From positions 1 through 37,543 of IMG/VR virus record IMGVR_UViG_3300033182_000144: a stretch of 37,543 bases of DNA; one strand, 5' to 3'. Origin of the DNA: a virus. Every line of letters begins with the position of its first letter. Positions within the stretch are counted from its first letter, which is position 1. The notes beneath the pieces are model-generated. The model was not told the DNA's origin, searched no databases, and saw only the letters and a list, made by a program, of their open reading frames with translations. Both the position numbers and the translations under genes were made by a program. Below, piece by piece: positions 3,001 through 35,527 of this stretch.

Positions 3001-3198
3001 GTAATACCTATTGGTACTGACGCACAAAGAATACCAATTGCTTACACAGAAACAGGTCTAACAAGATTTAATACTGAAGATAAACGTATTGAAATTTTTG
3101 ACGGAGTTAACTGGGTATCAGCAGCAGGTTCTGAATCAGGTATTAGTAGACAAGAAGCAGAAGATCTAGCATTAGAGATCGTGTTAAGTTTAGGATAA
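1..3198 (+). CDS. Tail fibre-like protein, 5'-truncated, LamG domain plus fibre repeats
   Basis: The reading frame is open from base 1, so the N-terminus lies outside the window; an in-frame TTG at 43 is an arbitrary start. The first ~100 visible residues look like the C-terminal half of a LamG/concanavalin A-like domain (WHHIAVSREAG, FFFDGTQIG, GNIDDVRVIKGTAVYT), a fold that often binds carbohydrate. A DQAGDFRVGDLF module shared with both giant proteins downstream follows. The central part is a tandem array of a ~90-100 aa unit with the core SNSDLELRANGTG and a following LTVSGTTDLQDT-type strand, typical of extended trimeric fibre shafts. Near the C-terminus there are two PVGT...RFN...W modules, also present in the fibres at 21911-25344. 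It is most likely a long tail-fibre or adhesin subunit. The family is clear; its exact place in the virion is inferred. Confidence 0.8.
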   Translation, partial: VDNGGWLRTFGNYELRWTVNGSTLFSFTSLNGAPYNYSTNTWHHIAVSREAGRTRFFFDGTQIGDIIDSTNYGTQKPLVIGADYTGTTAVDGNIDDVRVIKGTAVYTAGFTPTNLPLPVTSETVLMARFDGTDGATEFTDDVVLAQDIRFSGGETATSITLADYTDFGAEVRSIASASVYGEYGLYGTGPGVLMYAIGHNMAYIGTGKEFTNDAEAVIQDNEVVELNDAKIRYNTVDQAGDFRVGDLFHIDQETGNVDFNAANFTINTTGGLTITDGADTTYISATTIDTGNLSIHNNTIESTAGDVIIEADSNQVNVNSNVNIDGNLDVTGNVTIGGDITIGDEASDTIQIVAGIDSDLIPSKDSTYSLGKTNLRWSNIYVNQVNIDDIEIRDNYIRTTASNADLELRANGTGEVLVPSNDVQIDNNLTVSGTTDLQDTEVTGTITHTGNTVQTGNYTIAGLFTNGDIEINGNVVTTTTSNSDLELRANGSGTINVPTNNVQIDNNLTVSGDTDLQDTTVTGSVTHTGNVVQTGNINLTGNYDIDGLVTISSTTQFEDVQVSGNVVTTTLSNSDLDLQASGTGEVLIPTNDVVITNDLTVEGTISANEVTSTGTITANRFSTGNILIDDNFITTTISNSDLELRANGAGEVIVPSNDVILEQDLTVNGTTNLKDTNIIGSVTHTGDTTQTGNISLAGNLSVTGEITVNSAMQFEDIQIIGNVVTTTLSNSDLELRANGTGEIVVPYNDVVINNNLTIDGTLTVGDVISTGTIQANNFTTGDILIDDNFITTTISNSDLELRAAGTGSIVIDTFSINTATISSTGDFVIDPGSEILDINSTSAVNLPVGTTLERPGTSEAGQIRFNSTLSRFEGYNGTNWIRLDGLEDVDGNTRVTAELTEGANDNVIRFYSDGNLIVDIDNTALSAPKVFIDDITIDGNVISTVTSNTDIELTANGTGSVKFDNFAFRDNTITNTVNNSVTKFENTGTGYVKFTGTGGVVIPIGTDAQRIPIAYTETGLTRFNTEDKRIEIFDGVNWVSAAGSESGISRQEAEDLALEIVLSLG
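1195..2900 (+). repeat. In-gene fibre repeats (SNSDLELRANG units)
   Basis: There are five well-conserved and two decayed copies of a unit with the core TTxSNSDLELRANGxGxxxVP followed by NDVxIxNxLTVxG. They lie within the coding frame of the truncated fibre gene. The nucleotide copies have diverged while the protein pattern is kept, as expected for fibre-shaft repeats rather than a recent expansion. A related single unit (DADLVVAPNGAGEMVIKSDL) occurs at the N-terminus of the S74 fibre at 21021. Confidence 0.75.
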
Positions 3199-9873: not shown

Positions 9874-9891
9874 TGCTAAAACCAAAAATTT

Positions 9892-9899
9892 AATAAATA
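9892..9899 (+). promoter_or_regulatory. Putative late promoter (AATAAATA)
   Basis: AATAAATA differs by one base from the T4 late box TATAAATA. It lies in the 52-bp gap between the two giant genes, 26 bp before the 9926 ATG. GGAGCGGAG at about 9909-9917 could serve as the ribosome site. This gap is one of the few places in the block with room for a promoter. Confidence 0.4.
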
Positions 9900-9925
9900 C
9901 AGTAATGCGGAGCGGAGTTAATTAA

Positions 9926-15900: not shown

Positions 15901-18900
15901 AAAAGCGTTAGTGCAGCAAATTTACGATACTATCGATACCGACGGTACTTTACCAACTAGAACTGCTCCAGATGTTACATGGACAAGTGCTACATTCCAA
16001 AGTGAATACGCAGCATTAGGTACAGTAGCACAAGCAAGTATTGCTACAGGAACTACTACTTGGATTAACAATAACGTTAATACTTGGTCTTACACATACG
16101 ACTCGGATGTATGCGAACGTGACACAGGTTACATTGTTGATGCTTTATGTTTTGACGTACAGTATGGCGGTAACTTTGCTACTCGTAAAGCAGCACAAGC
16201 ATACTTTGATAACGCAGTACAAGTACTTCCGGCAGCACAAAGAACTGCTACAGCAGAATCTTTTGCTCAACTAGCAAGTATTGTAGGCGACATTGTACAA
16301 AATAACTACGCAGGACAAACTGACGCAGGTAACGCAGCATCTAATACAGAAACTACAGAAGTTGACGGTTTAGTACAAATTATTGAAGATGTAATTACTG
16401 CTAATAGTTTAAGTGGTTTACCATCACTAACAGCACCAAGCAGCGCATGGGTAGCAGCAGGTATTACAAGTGCTGTGAGTACATACAGTGGTAACGAAAC
16501 TACTAATATTAATGACGTACTAGAACAAATTGAAGACGATCTAATTACAAACGCAGATACTTTAAGTTTCCCTGCTCCGTCTACAGCAAGCACAAACATT
16601 CAAAATGCTGTAGCACAGTTAATTGCTAACAGGTCGTTCTTACAAGACGAAGTAACAGCATGGATTGCTACGCAAGTAGCAGGACCAATTGCTCCATTTA
16701 CAGGTGCGTTTACATATGATGTTGAAAAATGTTCAAGAGACGTTGGTTACTTAGTTGATGCGTTATGTTACGACATGATGTATGGTGGTAACAGTGCTTC
16801 TATAAAAGCAGCACAGTCTTACTTTGTTGGCGCAGTAAGTCAACTAGGCGCAGGTGAAGCAGAAGAAACTGTAGCAGCATATAACTATCTAGCAACTATT
16901 GTAGGATACATTATTACTGAGAATACTGGATGGACCCCAGAAAGCGCAGGAAGCCAAGATACTTCAGGAACAGCAGCAACAGCAACAGAAGCAACATTAG
17001 CAGCAGACTTGCTACAAATTGTTGAAGATGTAATCAATGCTGGAGACTTAACAGGTCTTCCAGATGTTGAATATCCTGATATATCATTTGCTTCTACTGG
17101 TGTTCGTAATGCTCAAATTGGTATGCTAAGAGCAAAAACTGATATCCAACGTAAAGTTCTTAGACACATTGACGACAATTACTCTAAAGCATTTACAGTT
17201 AGTGCCGACTACGACTATAATCAAGCATTATGTACACGAGATGTTATATCTTGTATAGATGCTATGAAGTGGGATATGACATGGCCTAAACAATTTGCTA
17301 GAGCGTACACAGATGATGTTACTGTAGTGCTTCCAGCATTATACGAAACAAAACTAGCAGCACGTTGGTATGTAAACGCAGTTATTGGCTCGCAAGAAGA
17401 AGATTTCTACTACTTACGTAATAACACAGGTTTACGCTTACAAACAATGAATGGCTTAGAAGGCGATGTAGGTCCTGCTAATGCGTATGGAACTAGCCGC
17501 GTTACAGCAGGTGCTTATGCGTCGCTTGATCCAGGCTGGGGTCCAGATGATGAAAGAGCCTGGATATCGGCACGTTCGCCATACGTACAAAACTGTACTA
17601 CATTTGGTTATGCTGCTACTGGTCAACGCATTGATGGTGCGTTACACAATGGCGGTAATGACTCTATGGTATCAAACGACTTTACACAGTTAATATCCGA
17701 CGGTATTGGTGCTCACATACTAAACAATGGTAGAGCAGAACTTGTATCTGTATTCACATACTACTCACACATTGGTTACTTAGCAGAAACTGGTGGACGT
17801 ATTCGTGGTACAAACGGTAACAACTCTTATGGTACATTTGGTTCTGTTGCTGAAGGCGTTGATCCAGATGAAAGTCCAATTACAGCAACAACTGACAGCC
17901 GTACACAGTATCAGGCAATTATTGCTAATGTAGAAACTAACCTAAGCAACATACTTAGAGTTGAATACAGTCACGCTGGTAACAACTACACCAAAGCAGA
18001 CATTGAATTCTTTGGCGCTGGCGTAGATGAAGTTGCTATACAGGATGAATTCCGTGATAAGGCAATCTTTGAAGCAAGATTACTTGACTTAGATGATTCA
18101 AGCGGCGAAATTGGCGGTGACGGCTTTACAGTTGTACAAAATACTGCTCAAGACGGTAGTACAACAAGTATTACACTATCAGCAACAGACGGTAACTCAT
18201 CTACAGCATATATTGGTATGAAAGTTATTGTTACTGGTGGCGCAGGCGTAGGTCAATTTGCGTTAGTTGATACGTATAACTCAGGTTCAAAGATTGCTAG
18301 TGTTGTAAGAGAAACTGACGGCGTAGCAGGTTGGAATCATTTTGTTCCAGGTACGCCAATTGTTGCTCCTAACAGTTCGTCAACTTATCAAATTGAACCG
18401 GCGATTAGTATTGACGCTCCTACTTACAGTTCAGGCGCAATTACAATGTCTTCGTCAAATACTTGGATTGATGCTAAGTATGCTAACACAGCAGCGCAAT
18501 ATACTGCTGTATCTGGTTTAACTAGCGGTAACGGTCTAAGTGGTTCGTTCGATGTAACAAGAAACGGCAGTGCTTACTATGTTGAAGTTAACAATGGCGG
18601 CACAGCATATCAAAGATTAGACACTGTTACACTTGACGGATCTGACCTAGGCGGCGCAAGTTCTACACACGATATAGTTATAACTATTACAACAGTAGAT
18701 GACACAACTGGTGAAATAATTGACTTTGACTTTATAGGACAAGGTAGAGCAGGACAGTTCTTAGCAATTCAAAATTCAGGAACTGCTGCTTCGCTAAGTA
18801 ATGACGGTGTAACATGGTCAGCAGAAACATTACCTACTCCAGGTGCTGGTAATTGGTCTAGCATTGCTAACGGATTACAGTTTGACGGTTCTACAACATA

Positions 18901-20665
18901 TATGCCAAGTGCTACTGTTATTGTTTGTGACGGTTCTAATAACGTTGCGTACTCAGCAGATAATACAACTTGGAGTACAGCTTCATTACCAGTAGGAATG
19001 AACACAGGCTCTGAAACAAGAATAGCATTTGGTTCTCCTGTTACAGGAGTTAACAGATTTGTTGTTGTTAGTTCAGCGGACACTGATGTTGCTTACTCAG
19101 ACGACGGTGGTGCTACATGGACGTTAACTTCGTCAGCACTAGCTAGTGTTGGTTTTAACTGTATTACACACGGTGCCGGACTATACGTTGCTGTTAGAGC
19201 AGGTACTACTGACGCAGCATACTCAGCAGATGGTATTACATGGACTGGTGTTACTTTACCAGGAACTGCTACTGGCGGAACAGTTAGTTGGGGTAATGGT
19301 AGATTTGTAACACTTGGTGGTACAAATGGTGCTATGTACAGCTTAGATGGTATTACTTGGTACGATAGTTTAGCATTACCATTAACTGCTACCGAACGTA
19401 AGGTAGCATACGGTCAAGGTATGTTTGTTATTACATCAGACGATACAAACGAAGTACAATATTCAGAGGACGGTGTTTACTGGCAGGCATACACATTAAC
19501 AACTACAATTACAGGTGGTTATAATGCTTGTGCGTTTGGTAACCCAGACCAAGATCCTAAGTTTGTATTACTTCCAAATGCAGCTGGCACAGGCGGCGCA
19601 TACGCTAAGATTGGTGCTACTGCTAAAGCAAGACCAAGTATTGCTTCTGAGAAGATATATGAAATTAGACTTAGTGAACCAGGTTCAGGCTATGATGAAT
19701 TGAATCCTCCAACATTAACTGTTGTTGATCCAAACAATATCTACGATATCAATACTACACAACGTATTGGCAATGGTGTATTAGCTCAACCAAGTTTTGT
19801 TAATAGAGGTACAGGATTCCAAGAAGCATCAGCAGAAATAAATGATCAGACTTCAAATGGTTACGCTGACTTTATACAAGAAGGTGCGTACATTGCTGTT
19901 AAACGATTAACTGATAGACCAGTACCGGGTGCTAACGTTGTATTTGCTAGTTTACCAGACAAGGTATTTAAACTTGTAAACGTTGTAAGTTTCCTAGGAT
20001 CAAATCCGGGTTCTTACACAGCATTCTTACAAATATCACCGGATGTTGAAGTTTCTGACACGTTAGGCGACGAAACAGGTGTCGAATCTAGAATACGTTA
20101 CTCACAAGTACGTCTAACAGGACACGACTTCCTAGACATTGGTACCGGTGGATTTACAACAACGAACTATCCAAATACTCCGTTAGTAGATCCAGACCAA
20201 ACTAAAGAAACTGTGGACGCAGGCGGCGGTCGTGTATTCTACACTGCTACTGACCAGGATGGTAACTTTAGAGTTGGTGGATTGTTTAGTGTTGAACAGG
20301 CAACTGGTGTAGCAACACTTGATGCTGAAGCGTTTAACATTGCTGGTCTACAAGAACTATCACTAGGTGAAGTAACACTAGGTGGTAACTCAGCAAGTAT
20401 TACTGAATTTAGTACTGACCCGTTCTTTACTGCTAATAGTGATACTATTGTACCAACGCAACGTGCGATTAAAGCATACATTGAATCACAAATTGGTGGC
20501 GGCGGTGCTACGCTGAACGTTAACACTGTAACAGCAGGCGATATATTCATCGGAAGTAACTTAATTACAACAGTTTCTGGACAACCGATAAATATTAAAG
20601 CAGTACTGAACTTCCAAGGCGGAATAACAGGATTACCTATAGCATATAACTATATGTTAAGATAA
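9926..20665 (+). CDS. Giant virion protein (3579 aa), paralogue of the 1981-aa protein, expanded by a 12-copy Cys repeat
   Basis: One of the largest single phage ORFs one would meet, intact over 10.7 kb. The N-terminus has seven CBM5/12-like W...Y..GD.V.YG...YIC...H repeats (residues ~8-370). A beta-helix-like start (VYYVAEHGVNSPAPDYG, ~446) follows. Then comes a long array (~520-2455) of 12 units with the core YDxxxCxRDVGYIVDALxYD and YGGN. After this the protein rejoins its paralogue: NNTGLRLQTMNGLEG (~2497), YASLDPGWGPDD, SNDFTQLISDGIGAH, Asp-box repeats such as YSADGITW (~2945-3228), then GHDFLDIGTG and TDQDGNFRVGGLF near the C-terminus. No transmembrane segment is seen. It is probably a fibre- or baseplate-associated adhesin; which of the two paralogues contacts the host is unknown. 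Confidence 0.82.
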   Translation: MAEFKLGRIRFVWKNDWASTTTYYKDDVVRYGGKVYICVIGHEASADFFSDFTITPPKWNLVSDGQSWKGTWATSTSYIVDDIVSYGARLYICNTNHTSAADSADGLELDLAKWDVFADGLDWKGNWAVDTRYKVNDVVKYGAGSYVCNTAHTSTSVLADGLENDIANWDVFNQGIEYKSEWQSSFRYKVSDVVRYGSGLWICTTAHTSALEFGSTSANWEFFVQGFQYEDEWNAYKTYQQGDIVRYGGNTYVALTPNTEKNPYNDVNDWKLFSEGLKFLGDWGEDSSSYEYRVGEVVRQGGYTYICVADHQDQQPPNSEYWQRLTSGLDWRGEWRDDAEYFLGDVIRYGSNTYICVAGHISEGDDYSSLSSGEENSRPDQDLTGTYWNILAIGREEDVMTTKGDLVYYASNGPSRLPIGENGQVLQVNASGVPEWAYMGAADDVYYVAEHGVNSPAPDYGRTIDRPWANIRYATQQIEHGTKNPNARRLLELNRRFIQREIVEWTDRQIALGTSPFSSGMDYNSAYCERDMGFIIDALIWDITHGGNVRSREAALSYVNDAGKVYTKDQDEETVASINYGLTVIEAVLNQEAPASNYQEINGDNSTAIVEQWFDSNIASENVLSEITGLVGIITDAITAGVATNIPERLIRNTLIKVSTGKYYEVLPIIVPAECCVMGDELRSVQVFARKESNSALTPRKDVPLSFEAFKRLEPVLGDIVRGYDVDKTDGNIQVQSAEFPYGEARQQTAITKLARSLRRTIDSSLGDKLEIEWPGIDSFADDNYGYARNLLDTNRDFVKAELVAFLTNYDADLKYSRTKCKEDVGFIIDGIMYDLTYGGNWQSINTGLAYYSGTNGVLQIADSEKTATLAAYAYLKSILQTISRNITVSPTYQSEVTQVTGTSGSLAAANTIRDLVDDIITVVNSGPGNAPATVYPTVSSVESNLSDASTALSNASNDIQLATIDFISKNFGSFTYNSAACRRDLDYILTDVSYDVALGTNYGAVNSGIAYLRPNNAYNYANERVETIGAINFAKAEVADELTDATAISRSNAAFVEISDIIENGSGNIDTITYPAPSTLPSTNAEDAKDQLQANKTFIQTEITAWIDDQITYYNVTVPTPASVWYGFSYDSTKCSRDVGYIVDALSFDILYGGTLATTRMAQSYVGISGTAYPAGQSAQTALAYDRLATVVDQIVREVAVSKSSGNALTQDTTGTAATSTEGNALIAKMQIIEDVVTAGTLDNLPAITYPDLAALNVSATLQSEQAAISSAEAQIILDTIQYINTTFNDFNYDQAKCMRDVGLIIDACRYDFMLGSTFASTVAALSYLRLPSAEVVGDQKDATIAALEFAKTQALGIVTHPEAVAGIETSWEIVTDVMFSGSSEGGTKQVNDENSYNAIRQLELNKDFIVDEVQNYVDYWFSNSVSSTEQTTNIITVSDTSWMKTNMAIKFTNLDDSTDSVSESGLTADVTYYVKDILSNTTFTVSELPGGTVAVTLNSSATPFNYDRTKCSRDTGFIVDAVGYDTVLGTNYNAVTTGLSYARGNASEVTNNQLTETVSGIRRAKTIATSLLSVKNDTTALTRAGNAFDEIIDILSGSGFDRTICERDLGLIYDGTEYDILFGTNYNAVNIGLSYQRAPSSYTLSSEFQQTIRAIEYLKGLANSDLSGDATAQSRSDAAFDEIIDIISNGIGNADALVFTDPGVDNNKLYARQQLVANRSFIATELTNWISTKQGLWKGFSYDAASCRRDTEYLVDSIRHDAIFNSNYRTVSSALRYLSASNSQNYTNEKSQTLEAFAQAKALTTAELSDSTIISRSEALWDEVIDIITNGAGSADAYSYPTPSGGTNNASDANYLNARNQLVANKAFIQDEIIEWIADQVASSTAPFKPDFTYDSAACSRDVGLIVDALIYDETYGGNLQTYDAAKAYYDNAVAQYGTGEKSEILAALAHLKAVVGHVVTENTSWSKATALTQDTSGTATSTSHRDNVTKALVQQIYDTIDTDGTLPTRTAPDVTWTSATFQSEYAALGTVAQASIATGTTTWINNNVNTWSYTYDSDVCERDTGYIVDALCFDVQYGGNFATRKAAQAYFDNAVQVLPAAQRTATAESFAQLASIVGDIVQNNYAGQTDAGNAASNTETTEVDGLVQIIEDVITANSLSGLPSLTAPSSAWVAAGITSAVSTYSGNETTNINDVLEQIEDDLITNADTLSFPAPSTASTNIQNAVAQLIANRSFLQDEVTAWIATQVAGPIAPFTGAFTYDVEKCSRDVGYLVDALCYDMMYGGNSASIKAAQSYFVGAVSQLGAGEAEETVAAYNYLATIVGYIITENTGWTPESAGSQDTSGTAATATEATLAADLLQIVEDVINAGDLTGLPDVEYPDISFASTGVRNAQIGMLRAKTDIQRKVLRHIDDNYSKAFTVSADYDYNQALCTRDVISCIDAMKWDMTWPKQFARAYTDDVTVVLPALYETKLAARWYVNAVIGSQEEDFYYLRNNTGLRLQTMNGLEGDVGPANAYGTSRVTAGAYASLDPGWGPDDERAWISARSPYVQNCTTFGYAATGQRIDGALHNGGNDSMVSNDFTQLISDGIGAHILNNGRAELVSVFTYYSHIGYLAETGGRIRGTNGNNSYGTFGSVAEGVDPDESPITATTDSRTQYQAIIANVETNLSNILRVEYSHAGNNYTKADIEFFGAGVDEVAIQDEFRDKAIFEARLLDLDDSSGEIGGDGFTVVQNTAQDGSTTSITLSATDGNSSTAYIGMKVIVTGGAGVGQFALVDTYNSGSKIASVVRETDGVAGWNHFVPGTPIVAPNSSSTYQIEPAISIDAPTYSSGAITMSSSNTWIDAKYANTAAQYTAVSGLTSGNGLSGSFDVTRNGSAYYVEVNNGGTAYQRLDTVTLDGSDLGGASSTHDIVITITTVDDTTGEIIDFDFIGQGRAGQFLAIQNSGTAASLSNDGVTWSAETLPTPGAGNWSSIANGLQFDGSTTYMPSATVIVCDGSNNVAYSADNTTWSTASLPVGMNTGSETRIAFGSPVTGVNRFVVVSSADTDVAYSDDGGATWTLTSSALASVGFNCITHGAGLYVAVRAGTTDAAYSADGITWTGVTLPGTATGGTVSWGNGRFVTLGGTNGAMYSLDGITWYDSLALPLTATERKVAYGQGMFVITSDDTNEVQYSEDGVYWQAYTLTTTITGGYNACAFGNPDQDPKFVLLPNAAGTGGAYAKIGATAKARPSIASEKIYEIRLSEPGSGYDELNPPTLTVVDPNNIYDINTTQRIGNGVLAQPSFVNRGTGFQEASAEINDQTSNGYADFIQEGAYIAVKRLTDRPVPGANVVFASLPDKVFKLVNVVSFLGSNPGSYTAFLQISPDVEVSDTLGDETGVESRIRYSQVRLTGHDFLDIGTGGFTTTNYPNTPLVDPDQTKETVDAGGGRVFYTATDQDGNFRVGGLFSVEQATGVATLDAEAFNIAGLQELSLGEVTLGGNSASITEFSTDPFFTANSDTIVPTQRAIKAYIESQIGGGGATLNVNTVTAGDIFIGSNLITTVSGQPINIKAVLNFQGGITGLPIAYNYMLR
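11480..17300 (+). repeat. 12-copy Cys-containing protein repeat array (CxRDVGxIxDAL units)
   Basis: Twelve units begin near nt 11488, 12366, 12850, 13308, 13797, 14439, 14727, 15147, 15600, 16090, 16710 and 17208. Each has Y(D/N)xxxCxxD, mostly with R before the D, then a hydrophobic helix (VGYIVDALCFD), a YGGN or LGTN turn and a downstream helix (TVAAYNYLATIVG). Most are preceded by a helix of the type LVANRSFIATELTNWI. Every copy keeps the Cys. Units are spaced about 290-880 bp apart because linkers vary. Copies are diverged at DNA level, so this is an old and apparently selected expansion. Confidence 0.8.
20587..20594 (+). promoter_or_regulatory. Possible late promoter (GATAAATA)
   Basis: GATAAATA has one mismatch to TATAAATA and is identical to the box before the 32721 gene. 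It lies inside the end of the 3579-aa gene, 93 bp upstream of the 20688 ATG. Its position in coding sequence makes chance occurrence quite possible. Confidence 0.22.
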
Positions 20666-25411: not shown

Positions 25412-26218
25412 ATGACCAATCTACCAGACAGGTTACAGCAGTATCATACAACACTATATAATCAAAAATCAATTACAAATCCTGTTCATTTAGATGAAAA
25501 GGATCGCGAATTAGTTGAATGGGCGTATAATAAAGAGTGGACAAATCCAAAATTTAAATTGCGCCATTTTGTTGGCGATCAACAGATTACTCCATTTTCA
25601 AAGTTACGTCAATGGCTTCTTGAAATTAAATCTAGAGAAGAACAGATTGAACGTATGGAATACGAAATACGTAAAACAGATCTTGATATTAAAATTGAGC
25701 AACGTAATGCTGATTCAACAGATGATCCTTTATTAAAGGAAAAATTCGAAGTTGAAATAATGCGTCTTAGCAGAGAAAAGGGTATTACTGAAAGACGTAT
25801 ACATGACTATTACTTAGAACGACAACAATTAGTAGATCTTAGCAGAGAACTACTTGACTCTGACGAAGGCAAAACTCCAGATGGCCGCAGCCTAATGGAA
25901 GTGTTTAATACTGTAGAAGAAGATGAGTACGAAGCACAATATTGGACTCAACGTTTAGCAAAACAAGCAGCAATGGACATGATATTCTATGGCAGAATAA
26001 ATTCAGGAAATATGGATGCTATTGCTATGTTACCTTCAGCTCAGCAAGGCGAAGTATTACAGTTAACATATAGCTATGCTATGCAAAATCAAGAAATTCA
26101 ACAACGTATTTCAGAAGATGTAACGTCTAAGTTACAGCTAGGTCACCAAGACGATACAAGAAATTTAACACTAGCTGAATTAGAGCAATACGTAGAAACT
26201 AATCAGGAAACAGATTAA
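25412..26218 (+). CDS. Conserved hypothetical coiled-coil protein
   Basis: A 268-aa soluble protein behind a perfect late promoter and a strong AGGAGG site. The first ~65 residues are globular (ELVEWAYNKEWTNPKFKLRH). Residues ~70-150 are highly charged and heptad-like (REEQIERMEYEIRKTDLDIK, EVEIMRLSREKGITERRI), predicting a long coiled coil. The C-terminal third is helical (AKQAAMDMIFYGRINSGNMD). No enzymatic motif, signal or membrane segment is seen. Late expression next to tail genes suggests a virion or assembly role, for example a chaperone or scaffold, but I do not recognise the family. It ends 1 nt before the next ATG. Confidence 0.6.
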   Translation: MTNLPDRLQQYHTTLYNQKSITNPVHLDEKDRELVEWAYNKEWTNPKFKLRHFVGDQQITPFSKLRQWLLEIKSREEQIERMEYEIRKTDLDIKIEQRNADSTDDPLLKEKFEVEIMRLSREKGITERRIHDYYLERQQLVDLSRELLDSDEGKTPDGRSLMEVFNTVEEDEYEAQYWTQRLAKQAAMDMIFYGRINSGNMDAIAMLPSAQQGEVLQLTYSYAMQNQEIQQRISEDVTSKLQLGHQDDTRNLTLAELEQYVETNQETD

Positions 26219-26219
26219 T

Positions 26220-26765
26220 ATGTATATTGCGTTTGGAACATTGCCAGGAAACGATCCTAGACTAGATGACCAATATAAAATTATTACACACTGGTGGCAT
26301 TACACTATTGCTGAAGTTCCAGACGGGAAATACATAGAATGGCTATCTCCTGTTAAATTAACTGAACCTGAAACAAGAGCTGACGTTATATGTGATGCTG
26401 TAGACGATGAAGTATCTGTTAGAAAAAGTGTTGCTAAAAGAGGACAACTAATAGGAATATCAGGAGATGATATCGAAGCAGATGACAAAATTGTTCATGT
26501 ATTAACGCCTCAAGAAAAGCAAACTGCTGTAAGTTTCTTAAAAAAGATCCTATCAAATTTTGTAGAAAAAGAACTAAGCAGTATCAAAGAGCAATCAAAC
26601 ATAAAAGGTTTAATTGCTGCAGCAAAAACAATAGATGAACTAAAACTAATAATGGCCCAGTACTTTGATTTTAAGTCTATTGAAAATCAAGTAATTCCTG
26701 AACCTAAATTTAAATTATCAAGTTGGAAAAATCCTGAAATCGTTTCTTTACAAAAAGAAAGTTAG
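26220..26765 (+). CDS. Hypothetical protein
   Basis: A 181-aa protein starting 1 nt after the 25412 stop (TAATATG), so probably coupled to it. The N-terminal half holds an aromatic-rich segment (THWWHYTIAEVPDGKYIEWL) and two acidic stretches. The C-terminal half is helical and Lys/Glu-rich (TPQEKQTAVSFLKKILSNFV) and ends in a short basic tail. There is no membrane segment or recognisable catalytic motif. Its 3' end contains the -35 element of the next transcription unit. The function is unknown; it is probably co-expressed late with its coiled-coil neighbour. Confidence 0.55.
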   Translation: MYIAFGTLPGNDPRLDDQYKIITHWWHYTIAEVPDGKYIEWLSPVKLTEPETRADVICDAVDDEVSVRKSVAKRGQLIGISGDDIEADDKIVHVLTPQEKQTAVSFLKKILSNFVEKELSSIKEQSNIKGLIAAAKTIDELKLIMAQYFDFKSIENQVIPEPKFKLSSWKNPEIVSLQKES

Positions 26766-26775
26766 ATGCTATAAT
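26747..26775 (+). promoter_or_regulatory. Sigma70-type promoter for the auxiliary cassette (TTTACA-17-TATAAT)
   Basis: TTTACA at 26747-26752 (one mismatch to TTGACA) is followed after exactly 17 bp by a perfect TATAAT at 26770-26775. Transcription would start near 26783. A GTAGGAT ribosome site lies about 10 nt before the 26801 ATG. The -10 box is embedded in a perfect 12-bp palindrome, CTATAATTATAG (26769-26780), which may be an operator. No T4-late box is present in this gap, unlike the other promoter-bearing gaps of the window. Confidence 0.65.
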
Positions 26776-26800: not shown

Positions 26801-28471
26801 ATGAAAATTTTTAGTGTTCCATTAAACCCTAAACTATCTCCAGAACAGTATTACGATTTTATTAAGTTTGTAAGTATATACAAAGATTATATTTACGACA
26901 TATACTTTACAAGTAGAATACCACCTTTTAATCAAGATGCTATGGGGGATCAATTTCAAGGTGGAATTGACGACGACGAGTATATGATTAATGCTGCTTT
27001 AAATGTACAGCGAGAAACTGGCATTCCAGTTAGCGCAACATTTAATAATATTCAAGTTCGTCCTGACCAAGAAAACTTAGATACGTTTATAGAAAACTTT
27101 AAACCAATGTACGACGCAGGTATAAGGACTGCCACTATACCTCATACCCATTGGATGGCAACAGGACAGATCAAACATCATTTTCCTGAATTAAAAGTAA
27201 AAAATACTATCTTACATGATGTACATACTGCGACTGAAGTTGTAAATCTAGCAAAGGCTGGCTTTGATTATATTAACTTAGATAGAGATTTAATGAGAGA
27301 TCGTAACGCCTTGATGCGTATTAAAACTGCTAAAGAATGGATTAAAGAAAACTTAGGAAAAGAAATACACGTAAGTTTATTAGCCAATGAAGGTTGCTTA
27401 GGTCAATGTCCAATGATGGTTGAACATTTCCATTTTAATAATACTAGAACACCTACAAGCCCACAATACTTTCACGATCCTATCAGTTGTGTAAGTTGTC
27501 CTAAATGGGATATTGAAGATCCAGCAGTACAACTAAAAACAGCAGATTTGCCACCGTGGAAAGAGGATTGGGAAGAATTTATTAATGAGCTAGGTATTGA
27601 TGTATTTAAAATGCACGGACGAGAAAGTATATCTCGTCTAGCAGAAACAATTAATATTATTCAAAGATGGGTTGACAATGAAGAAATATTATTTGATAAG
27701 TTTAACGATTACATAAATGAAACTAATCTTGCTGAAAAACCTATTAATATTTGGCGAGACAAAATTAAAAACTGTAAGTTTGATTGCTGGGAATGTCAAT
27801 ACTGTGATAAAATTTACAAAGTTAAAAGTCCTATATTACACAGCGAATTAGCAAAACATGTAGTAGACGCTGTGGCTCAAAGCGGCAAGGCAAATCATAC
27901 TACAGATATTATAGGGTTAACATCAGACAGAGTTAAAACACTGTTAAACAATGTAGCCCAAGGTGTCACAAGTTATTTAGAATTAGGCAGTAGTCTTGGA
28001 GCAACAATGAGTGCTGTATTAAAAGACAATCTTATTAGTGCCTATAGTATCGATCTTTGGCAAGGAAATATACAACCTAAGAATGAATTGTTTGAACTTC
28101 CAGAAAACTCTAAAGATAACTTCGTTAGTAATATTGAACCTTATGTAGGAAACAGTAGTATTAAAATTATACAAAATGATATGTTTGCTGTAGATTTAAA
28201 CGAAATTGAAGAACCTATACAATTTTTATTTTATGACGGCGAACATGACTACGAAACTACAAAAAAAGCATTACAGTATTACTATGAAGTACTAGACAAC
28301 GAAGCAGTAGTAATTTTAGATGATGCTAATTGGGCTGGTACAGTTGATGCTGCTAATGATGCGTTTAGAGAATTAGGAGCATTACCAGTGTATACAAAAA
28401 TAATATTAAATAGCGAAGAAGATAGCAAGTCTTGGTGGAACGGATTATACATAATGGTGGTACATAAGTAA
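26801..28471 (+). CDS. U32-like Fe-S TIM-barrel protein fused to a SAM-dependent methyltransferase
   Basis: A 556-aa fusion. Residues 1-~340 resemble the peptidase U32 / UbiU-UbiV / RNA-hydroxylase superfamily: barrel strands (IPVSATFNNI, IRTATIPHTHW, FDYINLDRDLMRD), NEGCLGQCP with C199 and C203, CVSCP with C230 and C233, and an FKMHGRESISRLAETI element recalling the U32 K-x-x-G-R segment. A second cluster, C325, C329, C332 and C335, follows. The cysteines suggest one or two Fe-S clusters. Residues ~370-556 are a class I methyltransferase of the Methyltransf_24 type: YLELGSSLGAT (motif I, E394-x-G), SIDLWQ (D418), FYDGEHDYETTKKAL and VVILDDANWAG. It heads the overlapping cassette and its stop overlaps the next start (TAATG). 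The substrate is unknown; the methyltransferase call is firmer than the U32 call. Confidence 0.68.
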   Translation: MKIFSVPLNPKLSPEQYYDFIKFVSIYKDYIYDIYFTSRIPPFNQDAMGDQFQGGIDDDEYMINAALNVQRETGIPVSATFNNIQVRPDQENLDTFIENFKPMYDAGIRTATIPHTHWMATGQIKHHFPELKVKNTILHDVHTATEVVNLAKAGFDYINLDRDLMRDRNALMRIKTAKEWIKENLGKEIHVSLLANEGCLGQCPMMVEHFHFNNTRTPTSPQYFHDPISCVSCPKWDIEDPAVQLKTADLPPWKEDWEEFINELGIDVFKMHGRESISRLAETINIIQRWVDNEEILFDKFNDYINETNLAEKPINIWRDKIKNCKFDCWECQYCDKIYKVKSPILHSELAKHVVDAVAQSGKANHTTDIIGLTSDRVKTLLNNVAQGVTSYLELGSSLGATMSAVLKDNLISAYSIDLWQGNIQPKNELFELPENSKDNFVSNIEPYVGNSSIKIIQNDMFAVDLNEIEEPIQFLFYDGEHDYETTKKALQYYYEVLDNEAVVILDDANWAGTVDAANDAFRELGALPVYTKIILNSEEDSKSWWNGLYIMVVHK

Positions 28472-29109
28472 TGGATTTACATAATATCTTTGCGACACCG
28501 ATGTTTGTATCTAAAGCAAAATGCCATAACGAAGTTAACGATTATATTAAGAAATATATCTATCCCGTTTATAAAAAGAATGGTTATAATTCTTCTCAAT
28601 GCTCTGTATTCAGCGATTACTTTGAAGGTGCTCCGCAATTAGATCAAGGTGTATTTCGAGATCTTTATAGAGATAATATTGAAGAACTGCTAAACTTTAT
28701 AGGTTTTAATGCCGAACACCCTTGGACTGTTGCTTCGTATTTTTGGTACAATATAACTGGCAAGGGAGGGTGGCAAGAGCAACATGATCACATGAGTGGT
28801 CCCTTACCTTGTCAATTTTCAGCTGTTCATTATTTAAAACTTGACGATACACATATAGCAACTGAATTTGAAAATCCAGTTGCTACAGCATTAAGAAGTA
28901 TAGCGCCTACAGATAATAAAGAAATACTTCCTGATATGTTTAAAGGACTACATGCTGTGCCTAAGTTTGTTAAGGAAGGAGATATATTATTTTTTCCTGC
29001 GTACTTAAAACATGCCGTAAAGATACAAGAATCTGAAAGCGATCGTATAAGTATTGTTTTTAACGTAGGCGTTTACAACAATAGGTTTATTAGTACAAAT
29101 GTTAACTAA
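28471..29109 (+). CDS. 2-oxoglutarate/Fe(II)-dependent oxygenase (2OG-FeII_Oxy_5-like)
   Basis: A 212-aa protein. The N-terminal MDLHNIFATPMFVSK is the typical opening of the TIGR02466/2OG-FeII_Oxy_5 family. The double-stranded beta-helix ligands are visible as H105-x-H107 in WQEQHDHMSG, then CQFSAVHYLKLDD, and the distal EGDILFFPAYLKHAV (H181) with DRISIVFNVGVY (R192, predicted to hold 2-oxoglutarate). Such enzymes hydroxylate or otherwise oxidise peptides or small molecules using Fe(II), O2 and 2-oxoglutarate. It lies between the U32-methyltransferase and the halogenase, overlapping the former by 1 nt and the latter by 11 nt, so it is almost certainly in the same transcript and pathway. The substrate is unknown. 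Confidence 0.72.
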   Translation: MDLHNIFATPMFVSKAKCHNEVNDYIKKYIYPVYKKNGYNSSQCSVFSDYFEGAPQLDQGVFRDLYRDNIEELLNFIGFNAEHPWTVASYFWYNITGKGGWQEQHDHMSGPLPCQFSAVHYLKLDDTHIATEFENPVATALRSIAPTDNKEILPDMFKGLHAVPKFVKEGDILFFPAYLKHAVKIQESESDRISIVFNVGVYNNRFISTNVN

Positions 29110-30613
29110 AGTAAAAGAAATTATAATTTTTGGCGGTGGCACAAGTGGCTGGATGACTGCAGCATTTCTAGCAAGAAATTTAAGGTTTAAACCTAAAATA
29201 ACTTTAATTGAAGATGCTACTAAAGGCCCAATTGGCGTTGGTGAAGGAACTCAACCTTCAACAGCACCATTTCTCTGGGACTGCGGACTACATCCAAAAG
29301 ATTGGATGAAAGACGCTGATGCTACTTTTAAATACGGTGTAGAACTATCTGGTTGGTGCGACGAACCATACTTTGTTGATAATGATGTTCAAGAAACTAG
29401 TTTAATATCAGAAGGATTTTACACAAATCATTATTTTCAAAATAAACCGTATTCTGAATATAAAGATTTCTTGCCTGCTTATAATCTAGCCAAAGAAAAT
29501 TTAAGTCCTAAACTAGGAAACTTTGATCAAAACTTTGCTGTTTCTATTAGAGCCACCGGAGCATTTCATTTTAATGCATATAAAATAGTTGATGCTTTAA
29601 AAAGAGTTTGTTTAGATAAAATTACACACGTTGATACAACAATTGAAAAAGTCAATACAAACGAACATGGAATTACTAACTTAGTAGATAAAGACGGTAA
29701 AACATATTCCGCAGATTTATATATAGATTGTAGCGGCTTTGCTAGTATCTTACTAGACAAAACTTTAAAAGTTCCGTTTGATTCTTACACTGATCATTTA
29801 TTATGTGATAGAGCAGTAGCAATGCCTAAGCAGTACACCAATGAAACAGAAGAATGTCATCCGTACACTAAGGCAACAACAATGACTGCTGGATGGCGTT
29901 GGACTATTCCTACATTTGGACGTATTGGTAATGGATATGTTTATTCAAGCAAGTATATCAGTGAAGAAGATGCTGAAAAAGAATTAAGAGATGCTATAAA
30001 CGAGTACGAAGAACCAGCAAATCATCTTAAGATACGTTGTGGCAAGCACACAGAAGTTGCGGTAAAAAATGTAGTAGGAGTAGGTTTAAGTGCTGGATTT
30101 ATTGAACCACTAGAAGCAACAGGAATAACTTTTTCAACTAACGTAATTAAAAGTTTAGCGTATTCTTTAAATCACACAGGCAATATTTTAAACGATAACT
30201 TACGCAAGTTTATAAATGACGAATTTAATATTATAACAACTGAAATTTTAGCATTTGTGTGGGCACATTATAAATTTAGCACTAGACAAGATACAGATTT
30301 TTGGAAGGCAGTACACGATCTTAAAGTAGATGATTTACCTGAAAAGTCTAAAGAAATTTTAAACGAATTACTAAACGGACAATCGCCAAATTATAATATA
30401 TCCCCAAAAAGTATGTTTTGTATACCACAATGGTTTAGTATGTTACATGCTGGTAATGCTTATAAAGACAACGTATTAGAATTAACTAGTGATGAAGAAA
30501 CTTATGGAAAATATTTCGTATCTGTTCAAAAAGAACGTGTAAGACTCGCTAAAGAATTTTTAAAAAATCATTATGAATTTCTAAAGGAATTTTACAATGA
30601 CAACTCTATATAA
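29099..30613 (+). CDS. Flavin-dependent (tryptophan-type) halogenase
   Basis: A 504-aa FAD enzyme of the tryptophan-halogenase family (Trp_halogenase), the family that includes PrnA and the cyanophage iodinating enzyme VirX1. Visible motifs: the dinucleotide-binding FGGGTSGWMTAAFLARN (residues 11-27), GVGEGTQPS (46-54), the catalytic lysine K78 in DATFKYG (PrnA K79 equivalent), DCSGFASILLD, the halogenase signature W266-R-W-T-I-P271, and FIEPLEATG with E339 (PrnA E346 equivalent). All key residues are present and the length is normal, so it should be active. It would use FADH2, O2 and a halide to make a hypohalous intermediate; seawater bromide or iodide are plausible. The overlaps with both neighbouring oxygenases (11 and 17 nt) imply coupled expression. 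The substrate is unknown. Confidence 0.88.
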   Translation: MLTKVKEIIIFGGGTSGWMTAAFLARNLRFKPKITLIEDATKGPIGVGEGTQPSTAPFLWDCGLHPKDWMKDADATFKYGVELSGWCDEPYFVDNDVQETSLISEGFYTNHYFQNKPYSEYKDFLPAYNLAKENLSPKLGNFDQNFAVSIRATGAFHFNAYKIVDALKRVCLDKITHVDTTIEKVNTNEHGITNLVDKDGKTYSADLYIDCSGFASILLDKTLKVPFDSYTDHLLCDRAVAMPKQYTNETEECHPYTKATTMTAGWRWTIPTFGRIGNGYVYSSKYISEEDAEKELRDAINEYEEPANHLKIRCGKHTEVAVKNVVGVGLSAGFIEPLEATGITFSTNVIKSLAYSLNHTGNILNDNLRKFINDEFNIITTEILAFVWAHYKFSTRQDTDFWKAVHDLKVDDLPEKSKEILNELLNGQSPNYNISPKSMFCIPQWFSMLHAGNAYKDNVLELTSDEETYGKYFVSVQKERVRLAKEFLKNHYEFLKEFYNDNSI

Positions 30614-31187
30614 AGCAGATCTACACCATTTAAAGGATGTAGGCACAGAAGCTGAAAGAAACCAGTTAAAAGAAGATATTTTAAAATTAAAAGAGTCAAG
30701 TTCTACTAACATAAATCTTAGCAACGAAGGATGTTGGAGAGGCCCTGATTTTGTTGTTGAAAATTATCCGTGGTTAGAGTCTGCTTTAAGAGAATTAATT
30801 TATAAAGCACATACGCAATATATAACAGAAGATCCTACATATAAAGACTATGCTCAGTTAGATGGGACACAAGTTAACGGATGGATTAATGTAAATGAGC
30901 CACATAGCAGAAATGTAATGCACACACATTATGCTACTTATAGTGCGGTTTATTATGTACAATCAACTGGTACAGGGAAATTAAGATTTTGTAATCCGCA
31001 ATTAATCATGACAAACGATAGAACTGACAGTCCGTTTAGTAGAAATTTTTATGCTGATCCATCAGACGGTGATTTTTATCTATGGCCTAGTTGGGTACCC
31101 CATGAAGTTGAACCTAACTTTTCTAACAAACAACGTATAAACATAGCATTTGATGTGTATCTAAACACAGGATTATTATTAAAATGA
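30597..31187 (+). CDS. Second 2-oxoglutarate/Fe(II)-dependent oxygenase (TIGR02466-like)
   Basis: A 196-aa protein overlapping the halogenase end by 17 nt. The C-terminal half is a clear 2OG-FeII_Oxy_5 double-stranded beta helix: GWINVNEPHSRNVMHTHYAT with H109-x-H111, SAVYYVQSTGTGKLRF, then DGDFYLWPSWVPHEVEPN with H169 and KQRINIAFDV with R180. Both oxygenases in the cassette use H-x-H at the first ligand position rather than the H-x-D/E of many 2OG enzymes; I recall this as normal for this subfamily. It is not a duplicate of the 28471 enzyme, since outside the motifs the two share little. It probably oxidises the same or a related substrate. Its stop overlaps the next start (ATGA). Confidence 0.8.
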   Translation: MTTLYKADLHHLKDVGTEAERNQLKEDILKLKESSSTNINLSNEGCWRGPDFVVENYPWLESALRELIYKAHTQYITEDPTYKDYAQLDGTQVNGWINVNEPHSRNVMHTHYATYSAVYYVQSTGTGKLRFCNPQLIMTNDRTDSPFSRNFYADPSDGDFYLWPSWVPHEVEPNFSNKQRINIAFDVYLNTGLLLK

Positions 31188-31933
31188 TAAAATTCCGTAA
31201 AGAAAATAAAATTGAGTTTGTAAGTCTTGTACAAGGTGTTTCTGAAATGTTTCCTGTAACTGCCGCAAGAAGTTATAAACCTAAATGGGCAGAGTCTGCT
31301 GTAACAGAATATAAATCAATGATAAAAGATCAAGTAAACTTTAATCATATATCATTGTGTCCTGGTATTTTTGATTTGTTTAAGACTGGATATATTGTAC
31401 ATGCGTGGCACGACACTTTAATAAAAACTAACGGAGACGGCCATACATTTCAGTGGGCAGTTCCAAATTTTGACAGTTTAGAAATTACAGGTGTAACACA
31501 GCCTGTTGGATCACATACTGAAGATATTACTAAATTCTTACCTCAACGTCCACATAGTTTAAAAGGAGTTGTTAAATTTAATACTCCTTGGAGGATTATT
31601 GCTCCTAAAGGTGTTAAATTTTTAATGCTACCAATAGAGTATTCGGACGATCATTTATTTGACGCAGCAATGGGAATACTAGATCCGGAAGTTAGCAATG
31701 AAATAAACGTTCAAGTTTATTGGAATAAACTAAACGGAGAACATAAAATTAAAGCAGGTACTCCTTTATGCCAGTTAATTCCGTTATCTGAAAAACAATT
31801 TAAATTAGTAGTTCGTGATGCTACTCAACACGATTTAGACTGGGAAAAGAAGAAAGACTATATTAATGGTAGTACCTTCTTCCCGCAAAGAAAAAAATTA
31901 GCAGAAATGTGGAGAAAGCATTTTAAAATTTAA
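31184..31933 (+). CDS. Hypothetical protein, last gene of the halogenase cassette
   Basis: A 249-aa soluble protein joined to the previous gene by a 4-nt ATGA overlap. Features are ISLCPGIFDLFKTGYIVHAW, a TFQWAVPNFD strand, VKFNTPWRIIAPKGVKFLML and a QVYWNKLNGEHKIKAGTPLC segment, suggesting a mostly beta, possibly cupin-like or double-stranded beta-helix fold. The CPGIFDLFKTGY opening recalls domains of unknown function found beside oxygenases (DUF6065-like), but I cannot confirm this. There is no signal peptide or membrane segment. It converges on the minus-strand gene at 31923 with an 11-bp 3' overlap. The function is unknown; membership of the cassette pathway is inferred from overlap and orientation. 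Confidence 0.6.
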   Translation: MIKFRKENKIEFVSLVQGVSEMFPVTAARSYKPKWAESAVTEYKSMIKDQVNFNHISLCPGIFDLFKTGYIVHAWHDTLIKTNGDGHTFQWAVPNFDSLEITGVTQPVGSHTEDITKFLPQRPHSLKGVVKFNTPWRIIAPKGVKFLMLPIEYSDDHLFDAAMGILDPEVSNEINVQVYWNKLNGEHKIKAGTPLCQLIPLSEKQFKLVVRDATQHDLDWEKKKDYINGSTFFPQRKKLAEMWRKHFKI

Positions 31934-32333
31934 CTAACGGGATCTCTAATAACTCATTTACTTTATCAAAGTCTTCATTTTTTATAATTATACTTTTGAT
32001 ATCATTATAATGAATTTCATAATCAACTTGATCAATTAAGTCAAAGAATGTTAATGTCTTTAATGTTAATCTAGTCCTAGTACCTAAATGCGTAGATATT
32101 ATTTCTAAATGCGGTGTTGATCTACATTTAGAAAAGGAAGCAATACTTGTCTTATCGCTACCATTATTATTCCATATTATAATAGGATCGCATACTTTAC
32201 AGGCTGATATAAAAAGTTTTTTAATTACAACTGAATCTTTTAAAATCTTTCTTTGTATTACTGGATCGTCTGAATACTTGCGTAATTCATTTTTATAAAT
32301 GACAAAGTTGTTTCTGTGAGTTTCAAGAAGCAT
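31923..32333 (-). CDS. Hypothetical protein
   Basis: A 136-aa basic protein on the minus strand, 3' end overlapping the cassette's last gene by 11 bp and 5' end overlapping the 32323 gene by 11 nt. It has a Lys-rich helical N-terminus (KNELRKYSDDPVIQRKILKD), CKVCDPIIIWNNNG, and a beta C-terminus (RTRLTLKTLTFFDLIDQVDY). The CKVC pair is a possible metal or redox site but is isolated. No known family is recognised. It is probably expressed late with its upstream neighbour from the promoter at 32656. Confidence 0.55.
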   Translation of the reverse strand: MLLETHRNNFVIYKNELRKYSDDPVIQRKILKDSVVIKKLFISACKVCDPIIIWNNNGSDKTSIASFSKCRSTPHLEIISTHLGTRTRLTLKTLTFFDLIDQVDYEIHYNDIKSIIIKNEDFDKVNELLEIPLVKF

Positions 32334-32640
32334 TTTTATACCTGTTTAAATCTAATTCAAAGTCGTGAATACCTGACATCAAATCACCGTTAACTACTAG
32401 TGAATGAGCAAGTTTATAAAGGTACTCTTGAATAGGTATTCCGTAAAAGTTGCTCCAATACCAGTTGCTTACTATCTTTGTAACTTCAAAGTATTCTAAA
32501 CGTAGGATATAACTTTCTAAATGATTACCTGTAATTACAAACTTTTTGCCTTCATGCGGCACTTCAAAGTGATAGCTTGTAATAGGCTGTTTGTTTAAGT
32601 ACCTAACTAATTCATCTCGATCAAATCTTGGTATTGCCAT
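32323..32640 (-). CDS. Hypothetical protein
   Basis: A 105-aa protein, first of a two-gene minus-strand unit, with a strong GGGAGGA ribosome site just before its ATG. It is rich in aromatic residues (IVSNWYWSNFYGIPIQEYLY) and begins MAIPRFDRDELVRYLNKQ. There is no signal peptide or membrane helix. It is coupled to the downstream gene by an 11-nt overlap. No family is recognised; small orphan pairs of this kind often sit between structural modules in T4-like phages. Confidence 0.55.
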   Translation of the reverse strand: MAIPRFDRDELVRYLNKQPITSYHFEVPHEGKKFVITGNHLESYILRLEYFEVTKIVSNWYWSNFYGIPIQEYLYKLAHSLVVNGDLMSGIHDFELDLNRYKNAS

Positions 32641-33979: not shown

Positions 33980-35527
33980 ATGGAAAGAGAATACGCAGTT
34001 ATAGTTAAAAGGGGTATTAATCTCAGTGAGGTTGACGCAGATCTAGCAGCATCAACTGGTAACGGTCCTATACCTAACAGAAGCGTAGATGTAGCAAACG
34101 CTCGTCCAGGCTCTAACAGAATAACACACTGGATGCTTACTGACGAAGAAGCACGTGACTTAGAAAACGATCCTCGAATACAGGCAGTAGAAATACCGCC
34201 AGATCAGCGTGATGATCTAGTAATGAAAAGACACTCTGTTCAAACAGGCGATTTTACAAAACCTGCGTCATTAAATGCTAGTTATGTAAATTGGGGATTA
34301 CGTAGAGTTATAGAAGAAACAAATGTATATGGTTCAAGCACTTCTGCTCCAGATAGTAATTATCCATATGCGCTAGACGGTGCTGGAGTTGATGTAGTAA
34401 TACAAGACAGCGGAGTACAGCCTGATCATCCTGAGTGGAATGATTACAGTGGTAGTTCAAGATATCAAACTATTGATTGGTACGCAGCAAGTGGACTAAG
34501 CGGAACACAAAACGCAAACCACGATAGAGACTATGATGGGCATGGAACACATAGCGGCGGTATTGCTGCTGGTCTAACATATGGTTGGGCAAAAGGAGCT
34601 CATATATACTCACAAAAATTAAGCGGTCTAGAAGGTTCTGGAGATAGCGGAACAGGTATTCCTATTTCAGATGCTTTTGATGCTATTAGGTTATGGCACA
34701 CGTCAAAAGTAAACGGTCGTCCTACAGTAGTTAACATGAGCTGGGGATATTACAGCCAACCATTTGGTGATCCTACAAGCGGAACGTATAGAGGCACACC
34801 GTGGACTTTTACGTCACAAACTGATACACAATTATGGACAGCATATGGCCTTGTAGGACAGTATGTTGGAGGTTATAGATTAATACCTGCTCGTAATGCG
34901 TTTGCTGACGCTGAAATTGAAGACATGATTGATTCTGGAATTGTAGTTGTAATTGCTGCTGGAAACGAGTTCTACAAACAAGATTTGTCTACAGGTTTAG
35001 ATTATGATAATACTGTAACTTTTGGAGTAACCACTTATACCTATCATAGAGGTAGTAGTCCTTATAGCGACGACGCAATTAAAGTTGGTGCTATTGATAG
35101 GTTTACTGAATTGTCAGGCGCTAGTTACCTAGATAGAATCGCACAATTTAGTAATAGAGGACCAGCAATAGATATTTTTGCTCCAGGAGTAAACATTATT
35201 AGTTGTACTAGTACAATAAATTCATATTCAACAGTAAGTTATCCATTGGACTCAAATTACAAAATTGCGATGCTACAAGGAACAAGTGAAGCAGCACCTC
35301 AAGTTGCCGGAGTAGCAGCATTAATGTTAGGAGCACGACCTACGCTAACTCCTGCTAAAATTAAACAAAAGTTAATAGACGAATCAAAAAGTGTAATATT
35401 TGATACTGCTAGTGATGTAGATTATGCGGAATATACTACATCACTTCTTGCGTCGCCTAATAGAATGTTATACAGTAAATATGGTAGGCAACCTCACAGC
35501 ATTACTGGAAGTGTTAGTATATCATAA
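33980..35527 (+). CDS. Subtilisin-family (S8) serine protease, virion-associated
   Basis: A 515-aa subtilase. The full catalytic set is visible: D143 in VVIQDSGVQPDHP, H188 in DYDGHGTHSGG, oxyanion N329 in VVVIAAGNE, and S436 in LQGTSEAAPQVAG. The canonical GTSMAAPHVAG is altered to GTSEAAPQVAG, but no catalytic residue is lost. Residues 1-~95 lack a signal peptide and may be an I9-type propeptide (YAVIVKRGINLSEVDADL, ITHWMLTDEEARDLENDP, IQAVEIPP). The absence of a secretion signal and its place between two fibre genes suggest it is built into or processes the virion: fibre maturation, or digestion of host surface protein during adsorption. It is distinct from the prohead protease of T4-like phages. 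The stop codon lies inside the late box of the next gene. Confidence 0.87.
   Translation: MEREYAVIVKRGINLSEVDADLAASTGNGPIPNRSVDVANARPGSNRITHWMLTDEEARDLENDPRIQAVEIPPDQRDDLVMKRHSVQTGDFTKPASLNASYVNWGLRRVIEETNVYGSSTSAPDSNYPYALDGAGVDVVIQDSGVQPDHPEWNDYSGSSRYQTIDWYAASGLSGTQNANHDRDYDGHGTHSGGIAAGLTYGWAKGAHIYSQKLSGLEGSGDSGTGIPISDAFDAIRLWHTSKVNGRPTVVNMSWGYYSQPFGDPTSGTYRGTPWTFTSQTDTQLWTAYGLVGQYVGGYRLIPARNAFADAEIEDMIDSGIVVVIAAGNEFYKQDLSTGLDYDNTVTFGVTTYTYHRGSSPYSDDAIKVGAIDRFTELSGASYLDRIAQFSNRGPAIDIFAPGVNIISCTSTINSYSTVSYPLDSNYKIAMLQGTSEAAPQVAGVAALMLGARPTLTPAKIKQKLIDESKSVIFDTASDVDYAEYTTSLLASPNRMLYSKYGRQPHSITGSVSIS

Follow-up and report, generated by a model that had tools for sequence, protein, structure and literature searches.

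Five consecutive genes of a marine T4-like virus, designated here g1 to g5, form a conserved, co-inherited unit, and their order is conserved more than chance would allow. The genes lie in a 37,543-base virus fragment from IMG/VR (the window, i.e., the whole stretch of DNA analyzed), which derives from the tail-fibre region of the virus. Catalytic motifs are intact, reading frames overlap, and order and co-inheritance are evident across relatives; from these features we infer the individual reactions, the sharing of an acceptor and its identity. Our preferred reading, which we hold at about even odds, is that g1-g5 make up a tailoring cassette carried by the virus and directed at a single acceptor that the infected cell already contains.

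Gene content of the cassette

The cassette consists of five plus-strand open reading frames (ORFs) at positions 26801-31933, and successive ORFs overlap by 1, 11, 17 and 4 nt. A preliminary description had reported five overlapping or abutting genes, and its coordinates and overlaps were reproduced exactly. The window contained no tRNA genes, an Rfam search gave no matches, and megablast of positions 13000-37500 against phage records found no match.

The g3 product (29099..30613; 504 aa) matches PF04820 (Trp_halogenase) with an E value of 3e-97 (326.8 bits, cut-off 21). It carries the GxGxxG motif as GGGTSG, the W-x-W-x-I-P motif as WRWTIP, and the catalytic residues Lys (K78) and Glu (E339), both of which are invariant in an alignment of phage halogenases (26/26). 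Judged by these features, g3 is an intact FAD-dependent halogenase of the tryptophan type.

The products of g2 (28471..29109; 212 aa) and g4 (30597..31187; 196 aa) match PF13759 (2OG-FeII_Oxy_5) with E values of 4e-14 and 8e-17, respectively (53.2 and 62 bits, cut-off 27). The assignment of both as 2OG oxygenases in the preliminary description thus stands at the level of the family profile, but the canonical H-x-D/E...H iron triad is absent and replaced by H-x-H...H...R, which is invariant in 61/61 cassette oxygenases. We assign g2 and g4 to the PF13759 oxygenases; given the H-x-H motif, their use of 2OG is predicted only. Whereas g4, located between the halogenase and g5, is nearly always present, g2 is an optional member found in approximately one third of lineages.

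The first gene, g1 (26801..28471; 556 aa), matches phrog_1458 over the whole protein (E value of 2e-172). Its C-terminus matches the Pfam profile Methyltransf_24 (E value of 5e-9; 37.4 bits, cut-off 26.3) and its fold matches are of the O-methyltransferase type, although the methyltransferase matches are generic. The N-terminal part is a predicted TIM barrel. It had been labeled a U32/Fe-S protein, and we probed this membership against Pfam, with E. coli proteins and with an enlarged alignment. The barrel, seven Cys residues invariant in the alignment (positions 199, 203, 233, 325, 329, 332 and 335) and a U32-like K-x-x-G-R stretch agree with the label. However, the PF01136 (Peptidase U32) profile gave no match up to an E value of 0.1, and the Cys spacing does not fit the motif published for the U32 family of TrhP-RlhA-UbiU hydroxylases, CX6CX15CX3/4C (PMC6747719). 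A single profile comparison with U32 gave a marginal match (hhalign probability 13%, E value of 0.002). A U32-like identity of the g1 N-terminus is plausible, but not proven. Across 200 genomes from a single bacterial phylum, matches to g1 were confined to its methyltransferase domain.

These features bear on a possible role in RNA modification, in which g1 would act as a fused TrhP/TrmR pair that makes a methoxylated nucleoside and the other enzymes would elaborate it further. In B. subtilis, the U32 hydroxylases TrhP1/TrhP2 and the O-methyltransferase YrrM/TrmR are encoded in one operon and yield 5-methoxyuridine (PMC6599085), and g1 may follow the same logic of pairing a hydroxylase with an O-methyltransferase. 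In addition, the g1 profile matches YrrM weakly (E value of 0.049), and a viral protein among the fold matches bears the name tRNA mo5U34 methyltransferase. Unlike the B. subtilis system, g1 is a single fused protein that fails both the U32 profile and the Cys spacing, and its RNA substrate is hypothetical. With unproven U32 membership, generic methyltransferase matches, halogenases that have no known role in tRNA, and a window devoid of tRNA genes, we consider an RNA target improbable.

The last gene, g5 (31184..31933; 249 aa), matches phrog_7084 (E value of 5e-48). Its predicted beta fold has weak similarity to dUTPase (E value of 5.6e-4, TMq 0.30), and the dUTPase and DUF6065 Pfam profiles matched below cut-off and in single members only.

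Conservation and co-inheritance

Single-sequence scans for relatives of g3 and g5 returned nothing, whereas an alignment-based scan succeeded. Among g1 lineages made non-redundant at <90% identity (n=62), a halogenase occurred just downstream of g1 in 41, and 40 of these 41 also had g5. A scan seeded with g5 recovered the halogenase, g1 and an oxygenase together in 61 of 77 loci; many contigs were common to the two scans. Thus, the ordered co-occurrence in marine viral contigs that had been proposed as a check was observed, and scattered, unordered homologues were not found. Pairwise distances of g1, g3, g4 and g5 were correlated at 0.80-0.84. Since dozens of marine virus lineages share this gene set in an unchanged order, we conclude that the unit is real; conserved order and co-inheritance likewise support the earlier view of a single unit for which oxidation, methylation and halogenation are predicted.

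Two flanking genes outside the core are also conserved: m2 (25412..26218, plus strand; phrog_1409), which precedes the cassette in most loci, and m1 (26220..26765, plus strand), which matched no known family. Neither was homologous to annotated tail-fibre-assembly genes. The correlations of m2 (0.70-0.80) nearly match those of the core genes, and part of the co-inheritance is therefore plain linkage. This observation fits the alternative that g1-g5 share no pathway and that unrelated cargo gathered at an insertion site in the late region, its order being kept by linkage alone. Such a view is also consistent with the optional nature of g2 and with the occurrence of g1, halogenases and g5 in other combinations, which counts against a single pathway. 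It is, however, difficult to reconcile with the retention of gene order and overlapping frames in approximately 40 lineages whose proteins differ by 37-56% on average, with the recovery of the gene set from g5, and with cyanophages in which g5 adjoins a halogenase although g1 is missing from the site. We consider an absence of any shared pathway unlikely.

Relation to known systems

One of the closest known systems is VirX1 of cyanophages Syn10 and syn9 (PDB 6QGM), previously taken for a single halogenase gene. This description does not hold: in Syn10, a second halogenase gene precedes VirX1, which shares 17 nt with a downstream g5 homologue and is therefore part of a related cassette. Like g3, VirX1 is a PF04820-type halogenase downstream of tail genes, and syn9 has a 2OG oxygenase further downstream. 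The locus differs from the window in having two tandem halogenases and no g1 within the stretch examined, and PrnA is a better match to the window halogenase than VirX1 is. In Syn10 and five cyanophage types, g5 is directly 3' of a halogenase; in bacterial neighborhoods of g5-like proteins, no halogenase or cassette-type oxygenase adjoined them. No natural role for VirX1 was found in the literature examined.

The tryptophan halogenases PrnA and RebH share with g3 the PF04820 fold family, the flavin motif, W-x-W-x-I-P and the catalytic Lys and Glu, but they function in secondary-metabolite pathways, whereas g3 has no recognized scaffold gene. Phage halogenases have been annotated gene by gene as 'PrnA', with antibiotic synthesis as the suggested function (PMC2984593, PMC9964418), and were unmentioned in a pelagiphage transcriptome study. 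Similarly, the TIGR02466/PF13759 oxygenase genes of T4-like marine phages, to which g2 and g4 belong by the PF13759 cut-off, have been described as widespread in cyanophages and discussed singly, in relation to 2OG signalling or DNA repair (PMC3037559, PMC9964418); here one of them is a near-constant neighbor of a halogenase and g5. The open-access literature searched contained no description of the five-gene cassette.

Genomic surroundings and the proposed acceptor

Just 5' of g1 is a sigma70-like promoter candidate (26747..26775, plus strand; TTTACA-N17-TATAAT, with TG preceding the second hexamer), a consensus match only, which was the best of 38 such matches in the region. Such candidates are enriched before g1 in halogenase lineages. 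A search for psbA in 15 large relatives found none and so gives no indication of a cyanobacterial host. No scaffold-making enzyme (NRPS/PKS) was recognized among the window genes profiled (43 to 36457; two giant ORFs at 3928-20665 were left out, and one ORF was compared with PHROGs only). Because none was recognized beside the cassette, the acceptor is probably made elsewhere.

One specific form of tailoring, which we hold as a tentative possibility, is the post-translational alteration of phage tail or adhesin proteins, which would affect adsorption or host range. The lack of a recognized scaffold enzyme, the location in the tail region, co-inheritance with m2, the position of the cyanophage versions after tail-fibre genes and the large, accessible active site described for VirX1 (PMC8407142) all favor it. 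Nevertheless, late genes are a common site for unrelated cargo, and in part of the lineages a candidate sigma70-like promoter and/or terminator separates the tail genes from g1. Collagen-like tail fibres were rejected as the oxygenase substrate, as G-x-y runs were rarer in cassette loci (3/107) than in others (23/78).

A small-molecule pathway, in which the cassette would tailor an aromatic or quinone-like host metabolite moved across the membrane, appears somewhat doubtful. Of 21 halogenase-less lineages, 15 have a DUF401 permease gene near g1, and in 10 halogenase lineages such a gene lies 3' of the cassette; tryptophan-type halogenases and VirX1 use free aromatic compounds (PMC8407142). On the other hand, no permease was recognized in the window or found in several large relatives, no scaffold-building gene was recognized, and the substrates of DUF401 are not known.

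For the tailoring cassette, we propose that the acceptor would be hydroxylated by the barrel of g1, which may hold an Fe-S cluster, by g2 and g4, or by both, and that the methyltransferase domain of g1 would cap the hydroxyl to give an O-methyl group. g3 would then halogenate an electron-rich aromatic ring with reduced flavin from the host (no flavin reductase was recognized among the profiled genes, which counts against this pathway), and g5 may bind or present the acceptor. Our first guess for the latter is an aromatic moiety carried by a phage tail protein or by the host surface, with a transported small molecule a close second. It is possible, if still speculative, that these genes represent a viral modification system of a previously undescribed class: a multi-enzyme cassette of marine T4-like viruses, inherited as a unit, by which virion proteins, the host surface or RNA acquire halogen, hydroxyl and O-methyl groups in the course of infection. 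The characterized VirX1 iodinase would then belong to its cyanophage branch.

The fixed set of partners narrows the question of function: g5 plausibly handles the g3 target, and hydroxylation and O-methylation plausibly occur on that target too. A virion protein as acceptor would mean that marine phages carry halogenated residues; with a small molecule as acceptor, viruses may contribute organohalogens to seawater.

Layout and conservation of the cassette

PHROG matches indicate that the window, a 37,543-base IMG/VR virus record, comes from a T4-like virus and lies in its baseplate/tail-fibre region; a nucleotide search of a phage collection with positions 13000-37500 found no relative. The five + strand ORFs of the cassette, g1 (26801-28471), g2 (28471-29109), g3 (29099-30613), g4 (30597-31187) and g5 (31184-31933), are present exactly as in the preliminary description, with overlaps of 1, 11, 17 and 4 nt, and their G+C content is about 33% versus mostly 34-42% upstream. 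Two opposite-strand (-) genes without a family match follow (31923-32640), and the first of them shares 11 nt with the end of g5. The window also carries a baseplate-like protein (43-3198) with Bactofilin (three stretches) and Laminin_G_3 above the Pfam cut-off, one 3579-aa ORF in the tail region (9926-20665) and, amid tail-region genes, a subtilase (33980-35527; Peptidase_S8, 7e-34); genes of similar length to the latter come after the cassette in several relatives.

The description of these genes as a unit was borne out. A scan for g1 returned 80 viral loci, and those closest to the window repeat the order m2-m1-g1-[g2]-g3-g4-g5, in which m2 (25412-26218, phrog_1409) and m1 (26220-26765) are conserved upstream neighbors and g2 is an optional member. 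Pooled loci yielded 142 full-length g1 copies forming 62 clusters below 90% identity; a halogenase was counted within five genes downstream of g1 in 41 clusters, with g5 in 40 of these. A scan seeded with a g5 alignment, which shares many contigs with the g1 scan and is not an independent sample, found halogenase, g1 and oxygenase at 61 of 77 loci, and several of the other 16 are truncated contigs. Distance correlations among g1, g3, g4 and g5 (0.80-0.84) partly reflect linkage, since flanking m2 also gives 0.70-0.80. The cassette is real and conserved; that its genes have no pathway in common is unlikely.

Predicted enzymes

The g3 product is a predicted flavin-dependent halogenase (PF04820, 3e-97). 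Its best solved relatives are PrnA and other tryptophan halogenases, with VirX1, the characterized cyanophage halogenase, lower in the list. It contains GGGTSG, WRWTIP, K78 and E339, the last two invariant among 26 aligned phage halogenases. A further halogenase lies near the cassette in loci L028, L029, L040 and L050.

Both g2 and g4 match the PF13759 oxygenase profile. All 61 aligned cassette oxygenases share an invariant H-x-H, distal H and R, in the order H-x-H...H...R. The textbook iron motif of 2OG oxygenases is H-x-D/E...H; because H-x-D/E is absent from these 61 sequences, 2OG dependence of g2 and g4 is an annotation, not a demonstration.

The g1 protein (phrog_1458) had been described as a U32-methyltransferase. 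The methyltransferase half stands: the C-terminal half has a Pfam methyltransferase match and fold matches of O-methyltransferase type. The N-terminal half does not match the Pfam U32 profile, and its cysteines do not fit the four-Cys spacing published for U32 proteins (PMC6747719). The alignment from a profile comparison with bacterial U32 domains has a plausible register; its probability, however, is 13%. Predicted strands and helices alternate, consistent with a TIM barrel, and the Cys-rich part is poorly modelled; seven cysteines (199, 203, 233, 325, 329, 332 and 335) are invariant in 36-37 relatives. A U32-like N-terminus is a candidate assignment to be taken as a lead.

The g5 product (phrog_7084) has a confidently predicted fold (pLDDT 86), weakly like the dUTPase beta fold. 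Several lineages (L021, L027, L034, L037, L046 and others) carry another g5-like gene after the cassette. A g5-like gene (4e-32) is also found among many small packed genes in contig L173, titled a Bacteroidetes MAG and possibly a viral sequence binned into it.

Isolates, variants and transcription

Homologues of g5 occur in 15 isolate records. In five inspected types (syn9, S-RIM44, P-TIM40, S-CREM1 and Sf-FP1), g5 directly follows the halogenase, with annotated 2OG oxygenases nearby and tail genes upstream. VirX1, previously cited as a single halogenase gene, does not stand alone: its PDB chain aligns over its own full length to the second syn9 halogenase with no visible difference except the first residue, and the corresponding Syn10 gene is preceded by another halogenase and overlaps a g5 homologue by 17 nt. 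Halogenases of P-SSM2, S-PM2, S-H35 and S-SSM7 have different neighbors; the cassette therefore represents one branch of how phages use halogenases. psbA was found in 0 of 15 large relatives, whose records may be fragments and whose hosts may be other than cyanobacteria.

A DUF401 membrane permease (e.g., L064:11139-12095) lies near g1 in 15 of the 21 halogenase-less lineages, often directly after it; in isolate S-H25 a 165-aa gene intervenes. Among the lineages with a halogenase, 10 also have the permease downstream of the cassette; it was not seen in the window.

The sequence [ATC]ATAAATA is the T4-type late promoter motif. Three + strand matches in the window (9892, 25377 and 35523) precede ORF starts 9926, 25412 (m2) and 35549 by 26-35 nt, the spacing expected of such promoters. 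TATAAATA occurs once in the window versus 6.2 times predicted by shuffles, i.e., more rarely. In place of a late motif, g1 has the region's best sigma70-like consensus match. Counted as consensus matches across clusters that are related and hence not independent, sigma70-like scores of at least 10 precede g1 in 12/40 lineages versus 3/160 internal starts, hairpin-plus-T terminators in 10/41 versus 0/163 internal starts and 4/205 shuffles, and the late motif in 0/41 versus 10/40 before m2. Because of this enrichment before g1, with the late motif before m2 instead, some of these viruses may transcribe the cassette separately from the tail genes, and perhaps early. Timing may differ in syn9, S-RIM44 and P-TIM40, since late-like sequences lie before the gene preceding the halogenase there.

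Proposed modification and its acceptor

Judged by the enzyme set, the cassette would carry out oxidation, O-methylation and aromatic halogenation of one acceptor, which would not be made by the cassette itself. In Bacillus subtilis, U32 hydroxylases and YrrM/TrmR, encoded in one operon, make 5-methoxyuridine (PMC6599085), a precedent for the proposed pairing of hydroxylase and O-methyltransferase. The g1 profile weakly matches YrrM. RNA as the acceptor is improbable. Siting among tail genes favors a virion protein, and a tail protein is a possible, tentatively held acceptor, whereas the promoter pattern and the DUF401 permease favor a host-side or small-molecule target. A small molecule is a doubtful but conceivable acceptor.

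The literature handles phage halogenases and 2OG oxygenases apart (PMC3037559, PMC2984593, PMC9964418, PMC10452541), and no description of the g1-g5 cassette was found in a search of open-access literature. Phage-borne tailoring enzymes are of a kind already known; there is a fair chance that the cassette is a type of viral modification system not described before, and it is interesting as well as conserved.
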